Virus record (IMG/VR): IMGVR_UViG_3300037320_000021
Span: 1-26,301 of that record
DNA: 26,301 nt
Strand: one strand, 5' to 3'
Source of the DNA: a virus
The position numbers and the translations under genes are program-made. This document shows, piece by piece, positions 1,896 to 25,574 of the stretch. Under the pieces are notes generated by a model. That model saw only the letters and a program-made list of their open reading frames with translations. It was not told where the DNA came from and ran no database searches. Numbering within the stretch: the first letter of the stretch is position 1; the number at the start of each line of letters is the position of its first letter.

Positions 1896-1928
1896 AGTTT
1901 TAGTTTTTTGTAAATATAACAAAATAAA

Positions 1929-2348
1929 CTACCACCTCGCTCTTGTCTTCCTGTGGTCATAATGCACGAAGGTAGAGTAAGCACTAAGACCACCTTGTAA
2001 CATATCTCCATTACTTATAAGCTCTTCAATCTTAGCGGCTACATACTTAGGAGTTAATCCTTGTGCTGTAATATCAGCAGCTTTGCATAATGTATGCTGT
2101 GACTCTCCATCACGACCTTGTGAAAGCTCATAGAATACTGGTCTAAATGCAATATTAATGCTTATCGGCACGTCTAATTCATTTCGTAATATTTGTAATT
2201 GATTTGCAAGTTTCTGCAAACTATACTTTAGGCTTTCGCTGTTTTTATAGATTTCAATTACTTTTTTTTGCTCTGAATCGTCAAAGAATCTAGACTCTAA
2301 GAACTCGCTAACCATAAAGTTTTCTGTTAGTTTTTTGTCGTCTATCAT
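1929..2348 (-). CDS. M15-family peptidoglycan peptidase (endolysin)
   Basis: A 139-residue protein with the zinc signature of the M15 D-Ala-D-Ala carboxypeptidase/L-Ala-D-Glu endopeptidase family: R69 in FRP, SQH...AAD (H85, D92) and FVHYD (H129). The C-terminal HYDxRKxRARW ending is typical of phage M15_3-type endolysins. The small single domain is the usual length, with no separate cell-wall-binding domain and no signal peptide, so release should depend on the holin. A cysteine (C88) stands where the family usually has glycine or a similar small residue. The start overlaps the previous stop as ATGA (2345-2348). It ends in TAG, showing that amber is a normal stop codon here. Confidence 0.88.
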   Translation of the reverse strand: MIDDKKLTENFMVSEFLESRFFDDSEQKKVIEIYKNSESLKYSLQKLANQLQILRNELDVPISINIAFRPVFYELSQGRDGESQHTLCKAADITAQGLTPKYVAAKIEELISNGDMLQGGLSAYSTFVHYDHRKTRARW

Positions 2349-2841: not shown

Positions 2842-4704
2842 TTAGGCTTGACCCCCATCTGTAATAGACCAATTATATGTATTTATTAAAACATTTCTAC
2901 CAGATTGTCCAGAACTATTGTATTTTATTGTTCCCGCACTAAATTGCACGTTTTGCTGAAGATTAAGTTGAGACCAGTCCTTATAGCAGTCGGCTAGGTT
3001 TTGTGCTGACATGTTAGATTGTTCTAAAAACATGTGCATAGTAGTAATATTACTTAAATCCCAATTATTTAGAGGTTGGTTAAATGCTTGTGTGTTATAA
3101 AACATTGTAGTCATATTTTCAACACCACTTACGTCCCAATTATTAATGTTCTGGTTAAATAATCTAGCACCTAAAAACGTTTCCCTCATCTGTGTGACAT
3201 TGCTAGTATTCCAATTATTAAGTGGCTGATTAAACGCAAAAGCATTAAGAAACATAGCCCTAATATTTGTAACATTACTTACATCCCAATTATTAAGAGG
3301 TTGGTTAAATTGAAGTGTACTCATAAAAACACCAAACATACTAGTCACATTGCTAGTGTTCCAATTTGTTGTGTCTGGATTTGCTATTGATGCACCTCGG
3401 AACATGGAATCCATAGAGGTTACTTGACTTAGATTTGGTATATCTGTTGCAGTCACTAACATGTTTTTACATCCAAAAAAAGCACCTTCAAAACTAGACC
3501 AAACAATATTACCCCATTGTTTTATATCTTTGACTTTCTCGTCATCTCCAGAATTGTTGAACTTTATTCTGCTAAATCCATTGACTGCCTTGGGAAATAT
3601 ATGCAGATCGTAAACCCCCGCATTTGTAAAGGTTATAGTAGCTTCATCGCTTAAATTATTGAAGGTTTCAATAACATTACCACCTTGTTTGGCTAATATA
3701 TCATAATCCCCTTCAGCACCTGTGAACTGAAATTGATTATTGTTTGATGTTCCGTTTTTTGTAGAATCAATTTGAATAGTAAGTGTTGGTATTAATCCAC
3801 CGTCTGAAAAGCTCCAACTTTGATTATTAATCAATAGATTTCTTGCAACTTCGCCTGCATAGTTATATTTAGAATTCCCCCCGTGAAATGTTACATTTGT
3901 ATTAGTATTAAGGTTTTGCATGTCTACTAATAACTTAGAATATCTTACTGTATTAATGTTACTTCCCAAGAACATAAGAGAGCCATTTTGTAGATTAGCT
4001 AGAGCTATTGCAGACGGCAATAATGTTAATTGAGATCCCAAGAAAATAAGAAATCCATTTTCTAGATTTGATAAAGTCATTTCAGAAGGCAAGGATTGCA
4101 GAGGACATCCTCTAAACATTTGACTTCCACTTTGTAAATTAGATAAAATCATTTGAAACGGTAAAGACGTTAAAGGACATCCTCTAAACATATCAGTTCC
4201 ATTTTGTAAATTAGCTAAAGTCATTTCAAAAGGCAAGGATTGTAGAGGACAATCTTGAAACATTTGACTTCCGTCAGTTACTATGTTCAACCATTCAATG
4301 TCGTTAGCTAGTGTATTTAAGTTTAAGCATCCAAAAAACAAACCTTGTCTGTTATCGGCAAATAGACCCCATTGATTAATTTTAGATAATTTTAACTTAT
4401 CGCCAGAGTCATTGAATCTTAAGCCTGTGAAACCATTAACACTTTTTGCTTTTACCTCTAAAATATAAACACCAGAACCGTTGTTAAATGTGATAGTTTC
4501 CTGATCAGATAAATCTCTAAAGGTTTGCACTACTATACCGTTCTGTTTTGCTACCACGTCATAGTTTCCTTGTGCGCCTGTAAGCTGAAATTGATCTGAA
4601 TTACTACCAGCCTTTGAAGTGTCGATCTCTATTATGAAGGCTGTATTTCCACCTCCAACCCTAAACCTATTATAATTAAACCCAAAATTAAATCCGTGTC
4701 TCAT
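2842..4704 (-). CDS. Two-module LRR/DUF285 (BspA-like) surface protein, probable receptor-binding fibre
   Basis: A 620-residue protein built from two parallel modules (about 21-313 and 315-619). Each begins with an Ig-like beta domain (FxxTGAxGxYDxxAKQxG, then VNGFxxxxFNxSGD) and a (I/N)QWG linker, continues with solenoid repeats, and ends with a shared cap (NxxWSxxDGG). Module 1 repeats are five 24-residue LRR-like units (144-263). Module 2 repeats are 25-residue DUF285 units, FNQPLNNWDVSNVT... (466-565). DUF285 and BspA-like repeats are known from bacterial surface adhesins. As the last tail gene it is a good candidate for the host-recognition protein, which is inference. I start at ATG 4704, which overlaps the previous stop as TAATG; an in-frame ATG at 4725 is less likely. 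Confidence 0.75.
   Translation of the reverse strand: MRHGFNFGFNYNRFRVGGGNTAFIIEIDTSKAGSNSDQFQLTGAQGNYDVVAKQNGIVVQTFRDLSDQETITFNNGSGVYILEVKAKSVNGFTGLRFNDSGDKLKLSKINQWGLFADNRQGLFFGCLNLNTLANDIEWLNIVTDGSQMFQDCPLQSLPFEMTLANLQNGTDMFRGCPLTSLPFQMILSNLQSGSQMFRGCPLQSLPSEMTLSNLENGFLIFLGSQLTLLPSAIALANLQNGSLMFLGSNINTVRYSKLLVDMQNLNTNTNVTFHGGNSKYNYAGEVARNLLINNQSWSFSDGGLIPTLTIQIDSTKNGTSNNNQFQFTGAEGDYDILAKQGGNVIETFNNLSDEATITFTNAGVYDLHIFPKAVNGFSRIKFNNSGDDEKVKDIKQWGNIVWSSFEGAFFGCKNMLVTATDIPNLSQVTSMDSMFRGASIANPDTTNWNTSNVTSMFGVFMSTLQFNQPLNNWDVSNVTNIRAMFLNAFAFNQPLNNWNTSNVTQMRETFLGARLFNQNINNWDVSGVENMTTMFYNTQAFNQPLNNWDLSNITTMHMFLEQSNMSAQNLADCYKDWSQLNLQQNVQFSAGTIKYNSSGQSGRNVLINTYNWSITDGGQA
3010..3309 (-). repeat. 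Four 75-bp repeats encoding DUF285 units
   Basis: Encodes residues 466-565 of the surface protein. Each unit begins FNQ(P/N)(L/I)NNW followed by (D/N)xSxxxxM and a phenylalanine-rich turn. A fifth, diverged unit precedes it (residues about 442-465). The protein pattern is kept better than the DNA. Confidence 0.75.
3916..4275 (-). repeat. Five 72-bp repeats encoding LRR-like units
   Basis: Encodes residues 144-263. The core is NGxxMFxGCPLxSLPxxMxLxNLQ-like (written by position: G2, MF5-6, L11, LP14-15, L20, L23). The last two units have lost the cysteine-proline pair. Repeats two to four are also clearly similar at DNA level. Confidence 0.75.
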
Positions 4705-4973
4705 TATGCTTCGGATTTTATGCAAAGGATATCGCCCGTAACAGATGTAATATTCTTAAAAGCTCCTGCAATAGAACCCCCAGCTTTTAGTTTTACCGTA
4801 AATGAAGAATCACCACCGCTATAAGTTTCTGTGGTAAAGTCACTATCTTCATTAGCGTAAACGGCCATGAACTTTTCATCTGTTGTCGTGTCTTCTCCTG
4901 TTGCTTTTTGTCTTACTCCAAACTGTCCTAGACTTGCTAAGTTGCTTTCTGAATTGAATTCTAATTTGTTCAT
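4704..4973 (-). CDS. Small tail-fibre-associated protein, unknown
   Basis: An 89-residue acidic protein rich in Thr, Ser and Gly with alternating polar/hydrophobic residues, consistent with a small beta-sheet domain; GGSIAGxFKNIxxVTGDI lies near the C-terminus. No signal peptide or membrane segment. It lies between the broken BACON gene and the LRR/DUF285 gene and overlaps the latter as TAATG, so it probably belongs to the tail tip or fibre. I do not recognise a family. Confidence 0.6.
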   Translation of the reverse strand: MNKLEFNSESNLASLGQFGVRQKATGEDTTTDEKFMAVYANEDSDFTTETYSGGDSSFTVKLKAGGSIAGAFKNITSVTGDILCIKSEA

Positions 4974-5001: not shown

Positions 5002-5301
5002 TTATTGTCCTGATTGTGTTATAGTGTGCTGTCCAGTTATGTCACCAGCCGTAAATGTAATTGATCCCGATCTTTCAGATGAATTAGGATTAGTTTGTAA
5101 CGTTACAGTTATAGTGGCATCGCCATTACCAGAAATAGCGATTAATGTAGCCCAACTAATGTTTTTCCTAATACCCTAATTAGCATTACAAAATAAATTA
5201 ATTGTGTAAGTTTTAGAAGTGAATCCTTCACTTGTAGAAACAGGACTTATAGTTAACTCTTTAACAAATTCTACTCTACTTGACGCTATAATCCCATTCA
5301 T
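5002..5301 (-). pseudogene. BACON-domain tail gene interrupted by in-frame TAG
   Basis: ATG 5301 lies two bases after the fibre stop. The frame codes 41 residues, reaches TAG at 5178-5176, then stays open in the same frame for 57 codons to TAA at 5004-5002. The part after TAG has clear BACON/Ig-like features: ISW (W50), SGNG (57-60), ATITVTLQTN, and a closing strand pair ending HTITQSG. BACON domains are carbohydrate- or mucin-associated modules common in Bacteroidetes and their phages. No ATG exists between the TAG and the domain. Either this is a nonsense mutation or a readthrough product of 99 residues is made. Other genes in the window end normally in TAG (1929, 21593, 25461), so general recoding is unlikely. 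Confidence 0.75.
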
Positions 5302-5302
5302 A

Positions 5303-8218
5303 TTAAGCTTGTTTTAATCTTCCAATTACAGCCACCTCATTAGTGTCTATAACTTCTAATTGGATAAAACTATACTGACTTTCTGGTACTGCTAATTCAG
5401 TAGAAGGAAATCTTAGTGTTACACCACTTTCCCCTATTATAGTTACTTCCCCCGTACCAAATTGACTCAAAACAAATTTAGTTCCTATTGGCGTGTTTAA
5501 CTTAATTACTGCACTTACTGCACTAGAAGAAGTGAATAATGGTGCAACTGTTTTATTACTTGTTTGGAACAAATAGCTAGTTGCTGATGTTTTTGTTTTT
5601 ACGTTGGTTATTAGGTTTTTTGTTATATGTACATCTCCTTTTAAATATGTATTCTCAATGTCGTCGTTTCCTAACACTACTGTATTCGAACCTTCTCCTG
5701 TTGCATCGTTTCCGATAACAATTTCATTTGTTGAGTCTTCTTGTTTTGATTTAGTTTGTGATCCTATAAATACACTATCATTGCTGTTTCTGTTTAGTCC
5801 TCCAGCACCTATACCAAAAGCGGTGTTATTACTTCCTGTTTCGTTTAAACTTAAAGCACTTACTCCATTAGCGGTGTTAGAACCTCCTGTTGTGTTTAAA
5901 CTTAAAGCATTTACTCCATTAGCGGTGTTAGCACCTCCTGTTGTGTTTGAACTTAAAGCACTTACTCCATTAGCGGTGTTAGAACCTCCTGTTGTGTTTG
6001 CACCTAAAGCACTTACTCCATTAGCGGTATTAGCAAATCCTGTTGTGTTTAAACGTAAAGCACTTACTCCATTAGCGGTGTTAGAACCTCCTGTTGTGTT
6101 TAAACTTAAAGCATTTACTCCATTAGCGGTGTTAGAACCTCCTGTTGTGTTTGCACCTAAAGCACTTACTCCATTAGCGGTATTAGCAAATCCTGTTGTG
6201 TTTAAACGTAAAGCATCTGTTCCATTAGCGGTGTTATTACTTCCTGTTTCGTTTGAACGTAAGGCATTTAATCCATAAGCAGTGTTATTAAATCCTGTTG
6301 TGTTTGAACTTAAAGCATTTTTTCCATAAGCAGTGTTTCTTTCTATGCCTGCTTTACCACTATTCCAAATAGTCTTATCTATATTATCAAATTCTAGATG
6401 TGGGATTAGAGGATTTTTAGCCGCCAATAATAAATCAATTCCTAAATTTATTATTGCAGCTCCTGCATCTCCGATATCGCTTAAGTTATTACCAATCAAC
6501 AAAGCACCAGATAGAGAACTTGAAGAACCGCCTTGAACTCCTATAGTGTACTCTACAAACTGAGCCTTTGCAGTTCCTGCTGATGCCGTTGCTGTAGATT
6601 CTACTAACCACCAACCTAGTAACGTTGCATTTGTTGATAATGGATTAACAACATACTCTTCTAGCTTAACTCCTGCTTTTGCTAGTGTCATATTCGCATA
6701 GTTGCCTTGACCTAATTGCAAAGCTACAACCCCAGAATTGAAGAAATAAAGCCTTGAGCCCGAAACTGTTGTAGATCCTAGCGGTGTTTTAACTCCGTTA
6801 TTATCCCAGAACTTAGGAATTACAGTATTACCGCCCGAATCAGCAGAATCTCTGTCAGCCAACACAAAGCTTACATTTTCATTATTTGCAAAAGATGGCG
6901 TACTTGGTTCTAGTGAGTTTCCAGTACCTCCAAATCTTAACAATGAACCGGCACCAATTCCAAATCCTAAACTATTATTTTTTCCCGTGACTGTAAGTCC
7001 TTTTTTTAGCGGAACCCCCGCTTCTTTTACATAATCGACTACAGTTCTTATAAGATTTGAATATTGACCTAGTGGGTTATAGAAATATTCAAAGCCTATT
7101 ATTTCGTTTACATTAACATCAATAACTATCCTAGCCACAAAAGCTTTTCTTACAAACTCAACTGTCGTGGGATAAGTTGTTTGCTGTTCTAAATCCCCGT
7201 CCTTATTATAATAAACAAAAGTTGAGTTTGCATTTAAATTTTCAACAGTAACATTTAATTTCTCAGAAGGATTATTTGCTAAATAACCTTCATCACTACT
7301 AATTTCAAACTTTAATGATGATAGTGTAAAAACAGTACCTCCATTTGCTGCTGTAACCGTAAAAGAACTACTTATTCCAGTACCTCTAGCCGATACGCTA
7401 GTAGTAATATTGTTAATAGCTTGCGTAATAGTAGCGTTAGTTACCGCATTGTTTGAATTAATATCCAATGCCGTGTCTAATGCGTCGGCTTCTGGTGGCG
7501 CATCAGGCGTTGCGGTGTTAAGATTTAAAAAGTCATCTAATGTAGTTTGTGTTTCATTGATTCCTATCTCGCTTGTAGTTTGACCTACATATAAGAAATC
7601 AAACTCTATACCGCTTCTTTGAGATTTAAAAACTATTAATTGAGCTACGCTTGGATCGTATGGGCCTGAAGTATTAACCTCGTCTTGTATTTGTGAAGTG
7701 TCGCCAATCTCACCAAGGTCAAATATTGCATTTTCTCTTGAATCATCCTTGTCACTTACAAAAAACACAATGTCCTGTGAACTTATTTGGGTCGCATTAT
7801 CTCCATAATTGCCTTTTACACCTGTAAAAATATAATATTCTCTTGATATATTTTGTGTAAAAACAGATGAGCCGTTACCGATTCTAAGAGTAAATAATAT
7901 TAAAAATTGGTTTTCTGTCTTAGCAAAAGAGGTGTCTGCATTAATTATACTCGCTATTTGTGCATTAATAGCAGTATTGCTTTCGTAATCTATGCCAGAT
8001 ACTTTTTTAAATACTGGTATTACGTCATTAATTGCACTAGCACCACCACCGCCAACCAAATTACCTAATGGATATTGAACCGTGTTTTGTAAGGAATTTG
8101 ACCATACTGGCAATAACTCGTCACCCACTAATGTATTTAGGCTAGGAAGGTTTGGGGTTATCTTACTGTTTGCGATAGCTTGCTCAACTGCCTGTAATCT
8201 TTGTTCTAATGTTGCCAT
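5303..8218 (-). CDS. Tail fibre with 17-residue tandem repeats
   Basis: A 971-residue protein. Residues 1-30 form a short coiled coil (LEQRLQAVEQAI). The N-terminal half has several beta-rich regions and a Gly-rich hinge (56-60). Residues 628-797 are ten exact-length 17-residue repeats, NTAxGxxALxxNTTGxx, with an 11th diverged copy to 814. Then comes a YadA-head-like stretch (NEIVIGND, NTVVLGND, 830-860) and a beta-rich C-terminal domain. The repeat type is known from trimeric fibres and adhesins, so a trimeric tail fibre is likely. There is no visible S74 chaperone dyad at the C-terminus. The start overlaps the previous stop as TAATG (8218). Confidence 0.8.
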   Translation of the reverse strand: MATLEQRLQAVEQAIANSKITPNLPSLNTLVGDELLPVWSNSLQNTVQYPLGNLVGGGGASAINDVIPVFKKVSGIDYESNTAINAQIASIINADTSFAKTENQFLILFTLRIGNGSSVFTQNISREYYIFTGVKGNYGDNATQISSQDIVFFVSDKDDSRENAIFDLGEIGDTSQIQDEVNTSGPYDPSVAQLIVFKSQRSGIEFDFLYVGQTTSEIGINETQTTLDDFLNLNTATPDAPPEADALDTALDINSNNAVTNATITQAINNITTSVSARGTGISSSFTVTAANGGTVFTLSSLKFEISSDEGYLANNPSEKLNVTVENLNANSTFVYYNKDGDLEQQTTYPTTVEFVRKAFVARIVIDVNVNEIIGFEYFYNPLGQYSNLIRTVVDYVKEAGVPLKKGLTVTGKNNSLGFGIGAGSLLRFGGTGNSLEPSTPSFANNENVSFVLADRDSADSGGNTVIPKFWDNNGVKTPLGSTTVSGSRLYFFNSGVVALQLGQGNYANMTLAKAGVKLEEYVVNPLSTNATLLGWWLVESTATASAGTAKAQFVEYTIGVQGGSSSSLSGALLIGNNLSDIGDAGAAIINLGIDLLLAAKNPLIPHLEFDNIDKTIWNSGKAGIERNTAYGKNALSSNTTGFNNTAYGLNALRSNETGSNNTANGTDALRLNTTGFANTANGVSALGANTTGGSNTANGVNALSLNTTGGSNTANGVSALRLNTTGFANTANGVSALGANTTGGSNTANGVSALSSNTTGGANTANGVNALSLNTTGGSNTANGVSALSLNETGSNNTAFGIGAGGLNRNSNDSVFIGSQTKSKQEDSTNEIVIGNDATGEGSNTVVLGNDDIENTYLKGDVHITKNLITNVKTKTSATSYLFQTSNKTVAPLFTSSSAVSAVIKLNTPIGTKFVLSQFGTGEVTIIGESGVTLRFPSTELAVPESQYSFIQLEVIDTNEVAVIGRLKQA
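5828..6337 (-). repeat. Ten 51-bp tandem repeats in tail fibre gene
   Basis: Exact 51-bp period, ten full units plus a decayed one down to about 5777. A higher-order 153-bp duplication is visible: a unit marked TTAGCGGTATTAGCAAATCC begins at 6021 and again at 6174, and its neighbours repeat in the same order. Because 51 is a multiple of three, unit gain or loss keeps the frame. Confidence 0.92.
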
Positions 8219-21511: not shown

Positions 21512-21630
21512 TACTTTATAATTTTGTTATTTAACTTTAAGCTTTTAATCTCTTCTAGTATATTCTTAATTCTGTCTTTGTTTTTAGTCTTACTAATCTC
21601 CTTGTTGAGCGCCTTGATTTGATCTTTCAT
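21511..21630 (-). CDS. 39-residue charged helical protein between portal and protease
   Basis: ATG 21630 lies inside the 3' end of the portal gene in another frame, and the stop overlaps the protease start as TAATG. The product is Lys/Ile/Leu/Glu-rich and helical (IKNILEEIKSLKL). It may be a scaffold-like peptide or simply a translational coupler that delivers ribosomes from portal to protease. The two overlapping junctions favour real translation. Confidence 0.55.
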   Translation of the reverse strand: MKDQIKALNKEISKTKNKDRIKNILEEIKSLKLNNKIIK

Positions 21631-22861
21631 ATTTAATTTGTTTTGTAAAGTTATATCCTAACTGAATCTTTGCATCTTCTGGGTCAACTCCTGCTTGTAA
21701 CAAATTAAGCAAAGCTTCTGACTTTCTCTTTTCGCTTTCTTCCTTTTGCATTCTACTATAATAATTAAAAGGTAAATGAGTCCATTCCATACAAGCTTCG
21801 CCAACAAAGTTAAAACGCTTCATAATCAAATCTACAAAGTCTTCACCCTTAGGACTCATGACGTAGTCAACGTGTGCGCCCCTTGCTTTCTCTTGGTTTT
21901 CATAAGTTGCACCGCTTCCAACCTCTGCTTCAATTACATCTTTAGGCACTCCATAGATACGACCAATTTTAAAGGCGTCTTGTACGTAGGCTTCGTCTAG
22001 TTTTAGTTTCCCCATGTCCTCTACAAACCGCTTAATCTCTATCATTGATTTGATGGCTGTGACTGGCGTGTTTTTCATTGTCTTCTGTTCAATGTCTTTC
22101 TTCTCTCCTTGGCTCATCATAGGGTTGTCAAGGTCATCAGATCCTACTTTACCAGCTACCATGTACTTTCCAGCAAATAATAAGTTTGTGTTCTTTGCGT
22201 CTAATGCCAATTCAGAATTAGAAAGCACCTTAAAAAGTGAATCTATAACGCTTGAACCTTTAAACCATTGTTTTGTTGTTGAGCTTAAGTCTGTGTAGTG
22301 TATTACTTTATTAAATGGTATTTTAGTTTCGTCTCCGTTATCATACTTATACTTAACTAGATTCTTTTTAAAATTGTCTGCGTTTAGCTTTGACAAAAAC
22401 AGTTTGTCCCCTTGATCTGTCATTTCTTTTGGAAACTGCATTTTAGAAGGGTCTAGAAAATAAAGTATATTATCAGATGTAGAAATAAAACTTTCTGCGA
22501 ATAGATAAGCGTTACCCATCATTAACCAAAACATATAATCCCATTTAAGTTGACGGGTTGTTTGAAATGGATTTGGTTCTGATATTAATTCGTAAAGTGG
22601 ATGGTTTGGTATGATCTCGCCGTTAGTGTCTTTAACGTATATTTTACCCAATGAGAAAAGATCACAGTTCATTTTAACGATTGTCAAAAATGCTGGATTG
22701 TTAAGTATAACCTTTAGTTTGGCCGCTTCCTCTTGGTAATCGTTATACGAGGTATTAGGCGAATAGTGCATGAAGTTTAAACCTCTCACCCTATCTATTG
22801 TGGTATCACGATTGTATAGTCTTGTGAACCTACTCCCAAAGAATGATTCTAATATACTAAT
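21593..22861 (-). CDS. Portal protein
   Basis: An HK97-type portal of about 400-422 residues: N-terminal wing, NPFQTTRQLKWDYMFWLMMG, GNAYLFAE, then IHYTDLS, FKGSSVIDSL, a stem/crown region, and MEWTHLPFNYYS near the C-terminus, all usual in this family. It forms the dodecameric DNA channel. The reading frame is open to 22864, and its first codons read ISILESFFGSRFTRLY if begun at ATT 22861, which looks like a natural portal N-terminus. No ATG, GTG or TTG lies upstream of GTG 22789. See the finding on this start. The gene ends TAG directly followed by TAA. Confidence 0.9.
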   Translation of the reverse strand: MSILESFFGSRFTRLYNRDTTIDRVRGLNFMHYSPNTSYNDYQEEAAKLKVILNNPAFLTIVKMNCDLFSLGKIYVKDTNGEIIPNHPLYELISEPNPFQTTRQLKWDYMFWLMMGNAYLFAESFISTSDNILYFLDPSKMQFPKEMTDQGDKLFLSKLNADNFKKNLVKYKYDNGDETKIPFNKVIHYTDLSSTTKQWFKGSSVIDSLFKVLSNSELALDAKNTNLLFAGKYMVAGKVGSDDLDNPMMSQGEKKDIEQKTMKNTPVTAIKSMIEIKRFVEDMGKLKLDEAYVQDAFKIGRIYGVPKDVIEAEVGSGATYENQEKARGAHVDYVMSPKGEDFVDLIMKRFNFVGEACMEWTHLPFNYYSRMQKEESEKRKSEALLNLLQAGVDPEDAKIQLGYNFTKQIKYERSNQGAQQGD

Positions 22862-23259: not shown

Positions 23260-23273
23260 GGGTAATTTTTATT

Positions 23274-23365
23274 AAAAAGTGGCGAATACAGGTTAGCTCA
23301 TTTCCTGTCAGCGAGTTTATTCGGAAGTTCTCTCTCCTTGACTGGCATTGTGCTGCACGCCACTT
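23274..23365 (-). ncRNA. Candidate structured RNA element with terminal stem and T-run
   Basis: On the minus strand AAGTGGCG (23365-23358) pairs perfectly with CGCCACTT (23284-23277), enclosing 73 bases and ending in a T-run. Inside, TATTCG/CGAATA pairing (23318-23323 with 23283-23288) and CCTGT/ACAGG (23304-23308 with 23288-23292) can stack with a 9-base bulge. The inner stem competes with the outer one for two bases (23283-23284). It begins 7 bases after the 70-residue gene. It may be an RNA gene, a cis-regulator or an unusual long-loop terminator. I do not recognise an Rfam family. Confidence 0.45.
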
Positions 23366-23371
23366 AATTTA

Positions 23372-25460: not shown

Positions 25461-25574
25461 CTAATATTTGTCCAATAAATATAACAATACAGTTACACAC
25501 GCCCAACCAATGAATGCGTACAACAAAACTAACACACCTCTTAATACGTAATCTACTATTTTATCTATTTTCAT
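25461..25574 (-). CDS. 37-residue single-span membrane peptide
   Basis: One strong hydrophobic helix (about residues 10-33, with GVLVLLYAFIGWACV) between charged ends. The start overlaps the small-terminase stop as ATGA; the stop is TAG. Such mini membrane proteins are common in phages and rarely understood. Coupling to the upstream gene supports translation. Confidence 0.55.
   Translation of the reverse strand: MKIDKIVDYVLRGVLVLLYAFIGWACVTVLLYLLDKY

Follow-up and report, generated by a model that had tools for sequence, protein, structure and literature searches.

An in-frame amber codon at a conserved tryptophan position of a phage BACON-domain gene: probably a recent nonsense mutation

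The BACON-domain gene and its amber codon

The window, that is, the whole stretch of DNA analysed here, comprises 26,301 nucleotides (IMG/VR record IMGVR_UViG_3300037320_000021, positions 1 to 26,301) of a tailed phage. Its host probably belongs to the marine Bacteroidota (flavobacteria); a host search based on the MCP returned distant relatives only, including Lacinutrix and Ekhidna MAGs. The features at the locus are as follows.

5002..5301, minus strand: BACON-domain gene, 99 codons and a TAA stop, interrupted at codon 42
5176..5178, minus strand: in-frame amber codon TAG, codon 42 (CTA on the plus strand; TGG, Trp, in relatives)
5014..5160, minus strand: BACON domain PF13004, residues 48-96 of the frame, wholly 3' of the TAG
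5275..5301, minus strand: leader MNGIIASSR, the start of the BACON frame
5303..8218, minus strand: tail-fibre-like gene, 971 aa with 17-residue repeats, ending one base before the BACON ATG
4704..4973, minus strand: small downstream gene, intact, 94% identical in the related phage L004

The reverse complement of 5301..5002 begins with ATG and translates as MNGIIASSRVEFVKELTISPVSTSEGFTSKTYTINLFCNAN, the TAG, GIRKNISWATLIAISGNGDATITVTLQTNPNSSERSGSITFTAGDITGQHTITQSGQ and the final TAA at 5002. A sequence-only reading of this DNA had described a 99-codon frame open but for TAG at codon 42, with the domain signature after it and no start codon to rescue it, and all of this was confirmed. In the profile search PF13004 matched residues 43-99 alone (E=5.9e-12, 45.8 bits), while the part before the TAG gave no match, and the ORF list contains no ATG, GTG or TTG start among the 57 codons 3' of the TAG. 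The probability that 57 codons stay open by chance is about 0.008 at this base composition, and since the BACON match lies in the same frame, chance is ruled out. Judged by its sequence, the stretch after the TAG is plainly coding sequence by descent.

The frame is a gene for a small BACON-domain (putatively Ig-like) protein, with PF13004 scores of 43-46 bits against a curated cut-off of 25. The hallmark residues of the domain are an N-terminal Trp, central Asn and Arg and a C-terminal Gln (PMC6949934), and by our assignment all of them are present (W50, N71, R77, Q96). The protein is presumably tail-associated, an assignment based on synteny, because the gene begins one base past the stop of the tail-fibre-like gene. 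Its leader has counterparts in two other contigs, MSIGIISSSR in L004 and MNGITASAR in L086. The common leader, which lies close to the exchange junction, supports the choice of start codon.

Codon 42 encodes tryptophan in the homologues

When the piece after the TAG was compared with IMG/VR, one contig was matched, L002 (IMGVR_UViG_3300031211_000014), which is 86% identical there. The L002 protein (118 aa) occupies the same slot after a fibre-like gene and shares 89% DNA identity with the window over 269 bp; it differs in having a longer N-terminus and TGG in place of TAG (AAT-TGG-AAT, as against AAT-TAG-GGT in the window). Scanning with the downstream neighbour of the BACON gene led to L004, a closely related phage whose protein in the same slot is 30% identical and has Trp at the position of codon 42. 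More distant homologues in Maribacter phage Colly_1 and in the gut phage contig MT835609 also have Trp at the site. The comparison of homologues proposed in the sequence-only reading therefore gives a sense codon in all four: Trp42 is invariant in 4/4 homologues covering the site in a five-sequence alignment, and it is the sole invariant Trp. All five sequences share S57, G58, I64, N71, R77 and Q96. The viral BACON profile PF19190 scores 23.4 bits when the TAG is read as W or Y and 19.0 bits with Q. Tryptophan has TGG as its only codon, and one G-to-A transition turns TGG into TAG.

A DNA search of IMG/VR for sister copies found no other BACON gene bearing a TAG; it returned the contig of L002 and two unrelated chance matches, in L096 and L097. 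Neither blastn against phage records nor tblastn against plasmids gave a match. The L097 match sits within a 294-aa phage ORF. In L096 (region 449-1880) the match falls in an Asn-rich stretch, SNANNGSKASLSYFNSNNGVSNANWNISFRS, which resembles a DGR template repeat and has a reverse transcriptase ORF directly downstream.

Among known proteins, Colly1_60 of phage Colly_1 (Molycolviridae) also has a single BACON domain and is coded directly after a tail protein gene, whereas it is intact, has Trp at the site, differs in its N-terminal part and is 39% identical. BACON domains are frequent in crAss-like phages (PMC6949934) and have also been noted in a flavophage family, in contigs of marine origin (PMC8776804). 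The tandem BACON repeats of crAss-like phages (PMC6949934) resemble our case in the domain and the tail neighbourhood, but the phage studied here has a single domain, no tandem array and does not use code 15.

TAG is a genuine stop codon in this phage

Three other genes terminate at TAG (1929-2348, 21593-22789 and the small ORF 25461-25574), just as the sequence-only reading had stated. The endolysin ends with RARW-TAG in the window and with RARW-TAA in L004; the portal gene ends with TAG-TAA, and TAA is found at nearly the same point in L007, L008 and L009. Relatives have TAA at, or very close to, the position of both these TAGs; TAG therefore works as a true terminator in this phage. A check of about 8,130 codons in 25 further genes found no internal stop.

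The suppressor tRNA that the sequence-only reading had thought worth seeking in the phage did not turn up: no tRNA gene was detected in the window, a genome fragment in which Rfam likewise found nothing, or in the records of six relatives (G001-G006). A more distant record has a single tRNA, Thr-GGT. Neither the window nor the closest records contain a Sup-CTA tRNA, though about half of the code-15 phages have none anyway, such a tRNA being present in the other half or so (PMC11210395).

An exchangeable slot behind the tail fibre gene

Compared by sequence, the slot behind the fibre gene is filled by different versions of BACON or by almost nothing. In L004, whose MCP is 84% identical to that of the window, the slot protein is BACON-like and there is one extra small gene in between. 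In L086 the fibre end is 92% identical to that of the window, and past the fibre stop there is only a 26-codon ORF, MNGITASARSILINTYNWTLNDYNPA, with the same leader and without BACON. Because the slot is variable and L086 has just this 26-residue ORF there, loss of the BACON protein seems tolerable. No homologue of the MCP of the window was detected in the L002 or L086 records, nor of its terminase in the L002 record; the PF03354 terminase profile matched none of four records, the window included, and is thus uninformative. As these records lack a detectable MCP homologue (they are possibly fragments), parts of the tail cassette seem to have been transferred between phages whose head genes differ.

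The region from 2842 to 4725 is a DUF285 (PF03382) BspA-like repeat gene. It is about 94% identical in DNA over 1.2 kb to 3750-5405 of L086, whose record is without a detectable MCP homologue, and this match points to a recent swap of modules at the tail end between phages that differ in their head genes. The fibre-like gene itself contains tandem 51-bp repeats at about 5788-6337 that encode 17-residue units such as NTTGGSNTANGVSALSL; gaps relative to L086 at these repeats suggest that the copy number varies.

Predicted fold of the BACON frame

A single model based on three sequences, the TAG being taken as W, gives the BACON frame seven strands at a mean pLDDT of 70, residue 42 opening the third strand. 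Its best PDB match was weak (E 1.7e-3): 3zmr, the BACON-containing enzyme BoGH5A. According to the model, a stub ending at residue 41 would keep about two of the seven predicted strands and is unlikely to fold. The function of the domain in this phage is putative, carbohydrate binding being part of its name. In PMC6949934 binding by phage BACON domains is no more than a hypothesis, and that paper cites structural work in which bacterial BACON domains are described as linkers.

Origin of the amber codon

Beyond the TAG itself, the domain shows no decay. Relative to L002, dN/dS is 0.28 before the stop (4 synonymous and 4 nonsynonymous changes) and 0.59 after it (6 and 12); with so few changes the difference lacks significance (Fisher p = 0.66). 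Genes compared with relatives are under purifying selection, mostly with dN/dS of 0.04-0.4. The BACON score of the window (45.8 or 43.7 bits) is not lower than that of the intact L002 protein (39.2 bits), and the half after the TAG has no second stop or indel. These comparisons suggest that the stop is recent, or is an error, or that the product is still made. With a long-standing nonsense allele more decay would be expected than is seen, a point against the nonsense reading unless the stop is recent. The sequence-only reading had named two signs that together would speak against it, namely that relatives have a sense codon and that this copy is decayed in other ways; the former was found (TGG) and the latter was not, a combination compatible with a stop of very recent origin or with an error of sequencing.

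We consider it probable that the TAG is a recent TGG-to-TAG nonsense mutation in an exchangeable and dispensable tail-associated BACON gene; that the gene is dispensable, the change recent and the TAG present in the phage and not only in the assembly is what we infer. A single change at the conserved tryptophan would interrupt the gene, translation would end at the TAG to give a 41-residue stub, and with only the stub made the phage would most likely display no BACON domain from this gene. Such a loss is probably tolerated, since the slot that the gene occupies behind the tail fibre is interchangeable and is filled in relatives by BACON variants or a 26-residue ORF. Of the three options left by the sequence-only reading, nonsense mutation is the one that agrees with Trp in 4/4 homologues and with TAG as a working stop. 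The case would then be one of a tail-associated module probably being lost from a slot into which related phages have put other modules. It is an ordinary finding of little significance on its own, and it serves as a caution that lone in-frame stops in metagenomic contigs should not be taken for recoding.

Since the TAG occurs in no second isolate, a sequencing or assembly error or a minority variant has to be weighed: the population would have TGG, with a wrong consensus base at position 5177 of the window. One base would account for everything in a single metagenomic contig whose gene is otherwise undecayed, and no other IMG/VR contig has TAG in the BACON gene. However, well-covered contigs seldom have a wrong consensus base, and there is no homopolymer at codon 42 or other local hint of error. 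We regard such an error as unlikely, though it is the next most probable account after nonsense mutation.

The other two options assume that the full-length protein is made; for them there is no positive evidence, and even taken together they are improbable. In regulated or leaky readthrough, near-cognate tRNAs would rarely decode the TAG, giving few full-length BACON proteins, many stubs and variable display on the tail. The frame is open past the TAG and the domain scores well there, but readthrough genes keep the stop among relatives above a constrained downstream frame, and here all homologues have Trp, the TAG is seen in one copy only and the local RNA fold is unremarkable (z = -0.77); readthrough is thus a very doubtful reading. 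If it were true, the gene would be a phage example of tail display under stop-codon control. In suppressor-dependent expression, an amber suppressor tRNA in phage or host would restrict the protein to such hosts. Sup-CTA tRNAs are known from code-15 phages (PMC11210395), but the 26-kb fragment and G001-G006 have no tRNA and that of the more distant record is Thr-GGT, and we hold this option to be highly unlikely. A leaky amber at the conserved Trp acting as a switch for low-level, variable BACON display, perhaps only in suppressor-bearing hosts, is likewise very improbable.

Wholesale recoding of TAG to Gln as in some Crassvirales has next to no chance of being correct: BACON is common in crAss-like phages (PMC6949934) and TAG is read as Q in some of them (PMC11210395), but code-15 phages have many in-frame TAGs and shun TAG as a stop, whereas here a lone in-frame TAG among some 8,130 codons stands beside three TAG-ended genes, two of which have TAA at or very close to that position in other phages, the relatives show Trp and not Gln, and TAG stops elsewhere behave normally. 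Creation of the stop by adenine mutagenesis in a DGR target was rejected as virtually without likelihood, for although several differences from L002 cluster near codon 42, they include C/T and T/G changes and the PF00078 reverse transcriptase is absent from seven records (G000-G006).

Two further observations concern other parts of the window. At 1922-1931 (minus strand) the endolysin TAG is followed two codons on by an in-frame TTG, the listed start of a 414-aa exonuclease-like ORF; the proximity is probably due to chance, and the true start is likely a later ATG. An intergenic element at 23268-23368 (minus strand), which has no Rfam match, consists of GTGGCG...CGCCAC arms followed by a T run and has a modest fold z of -1.65.
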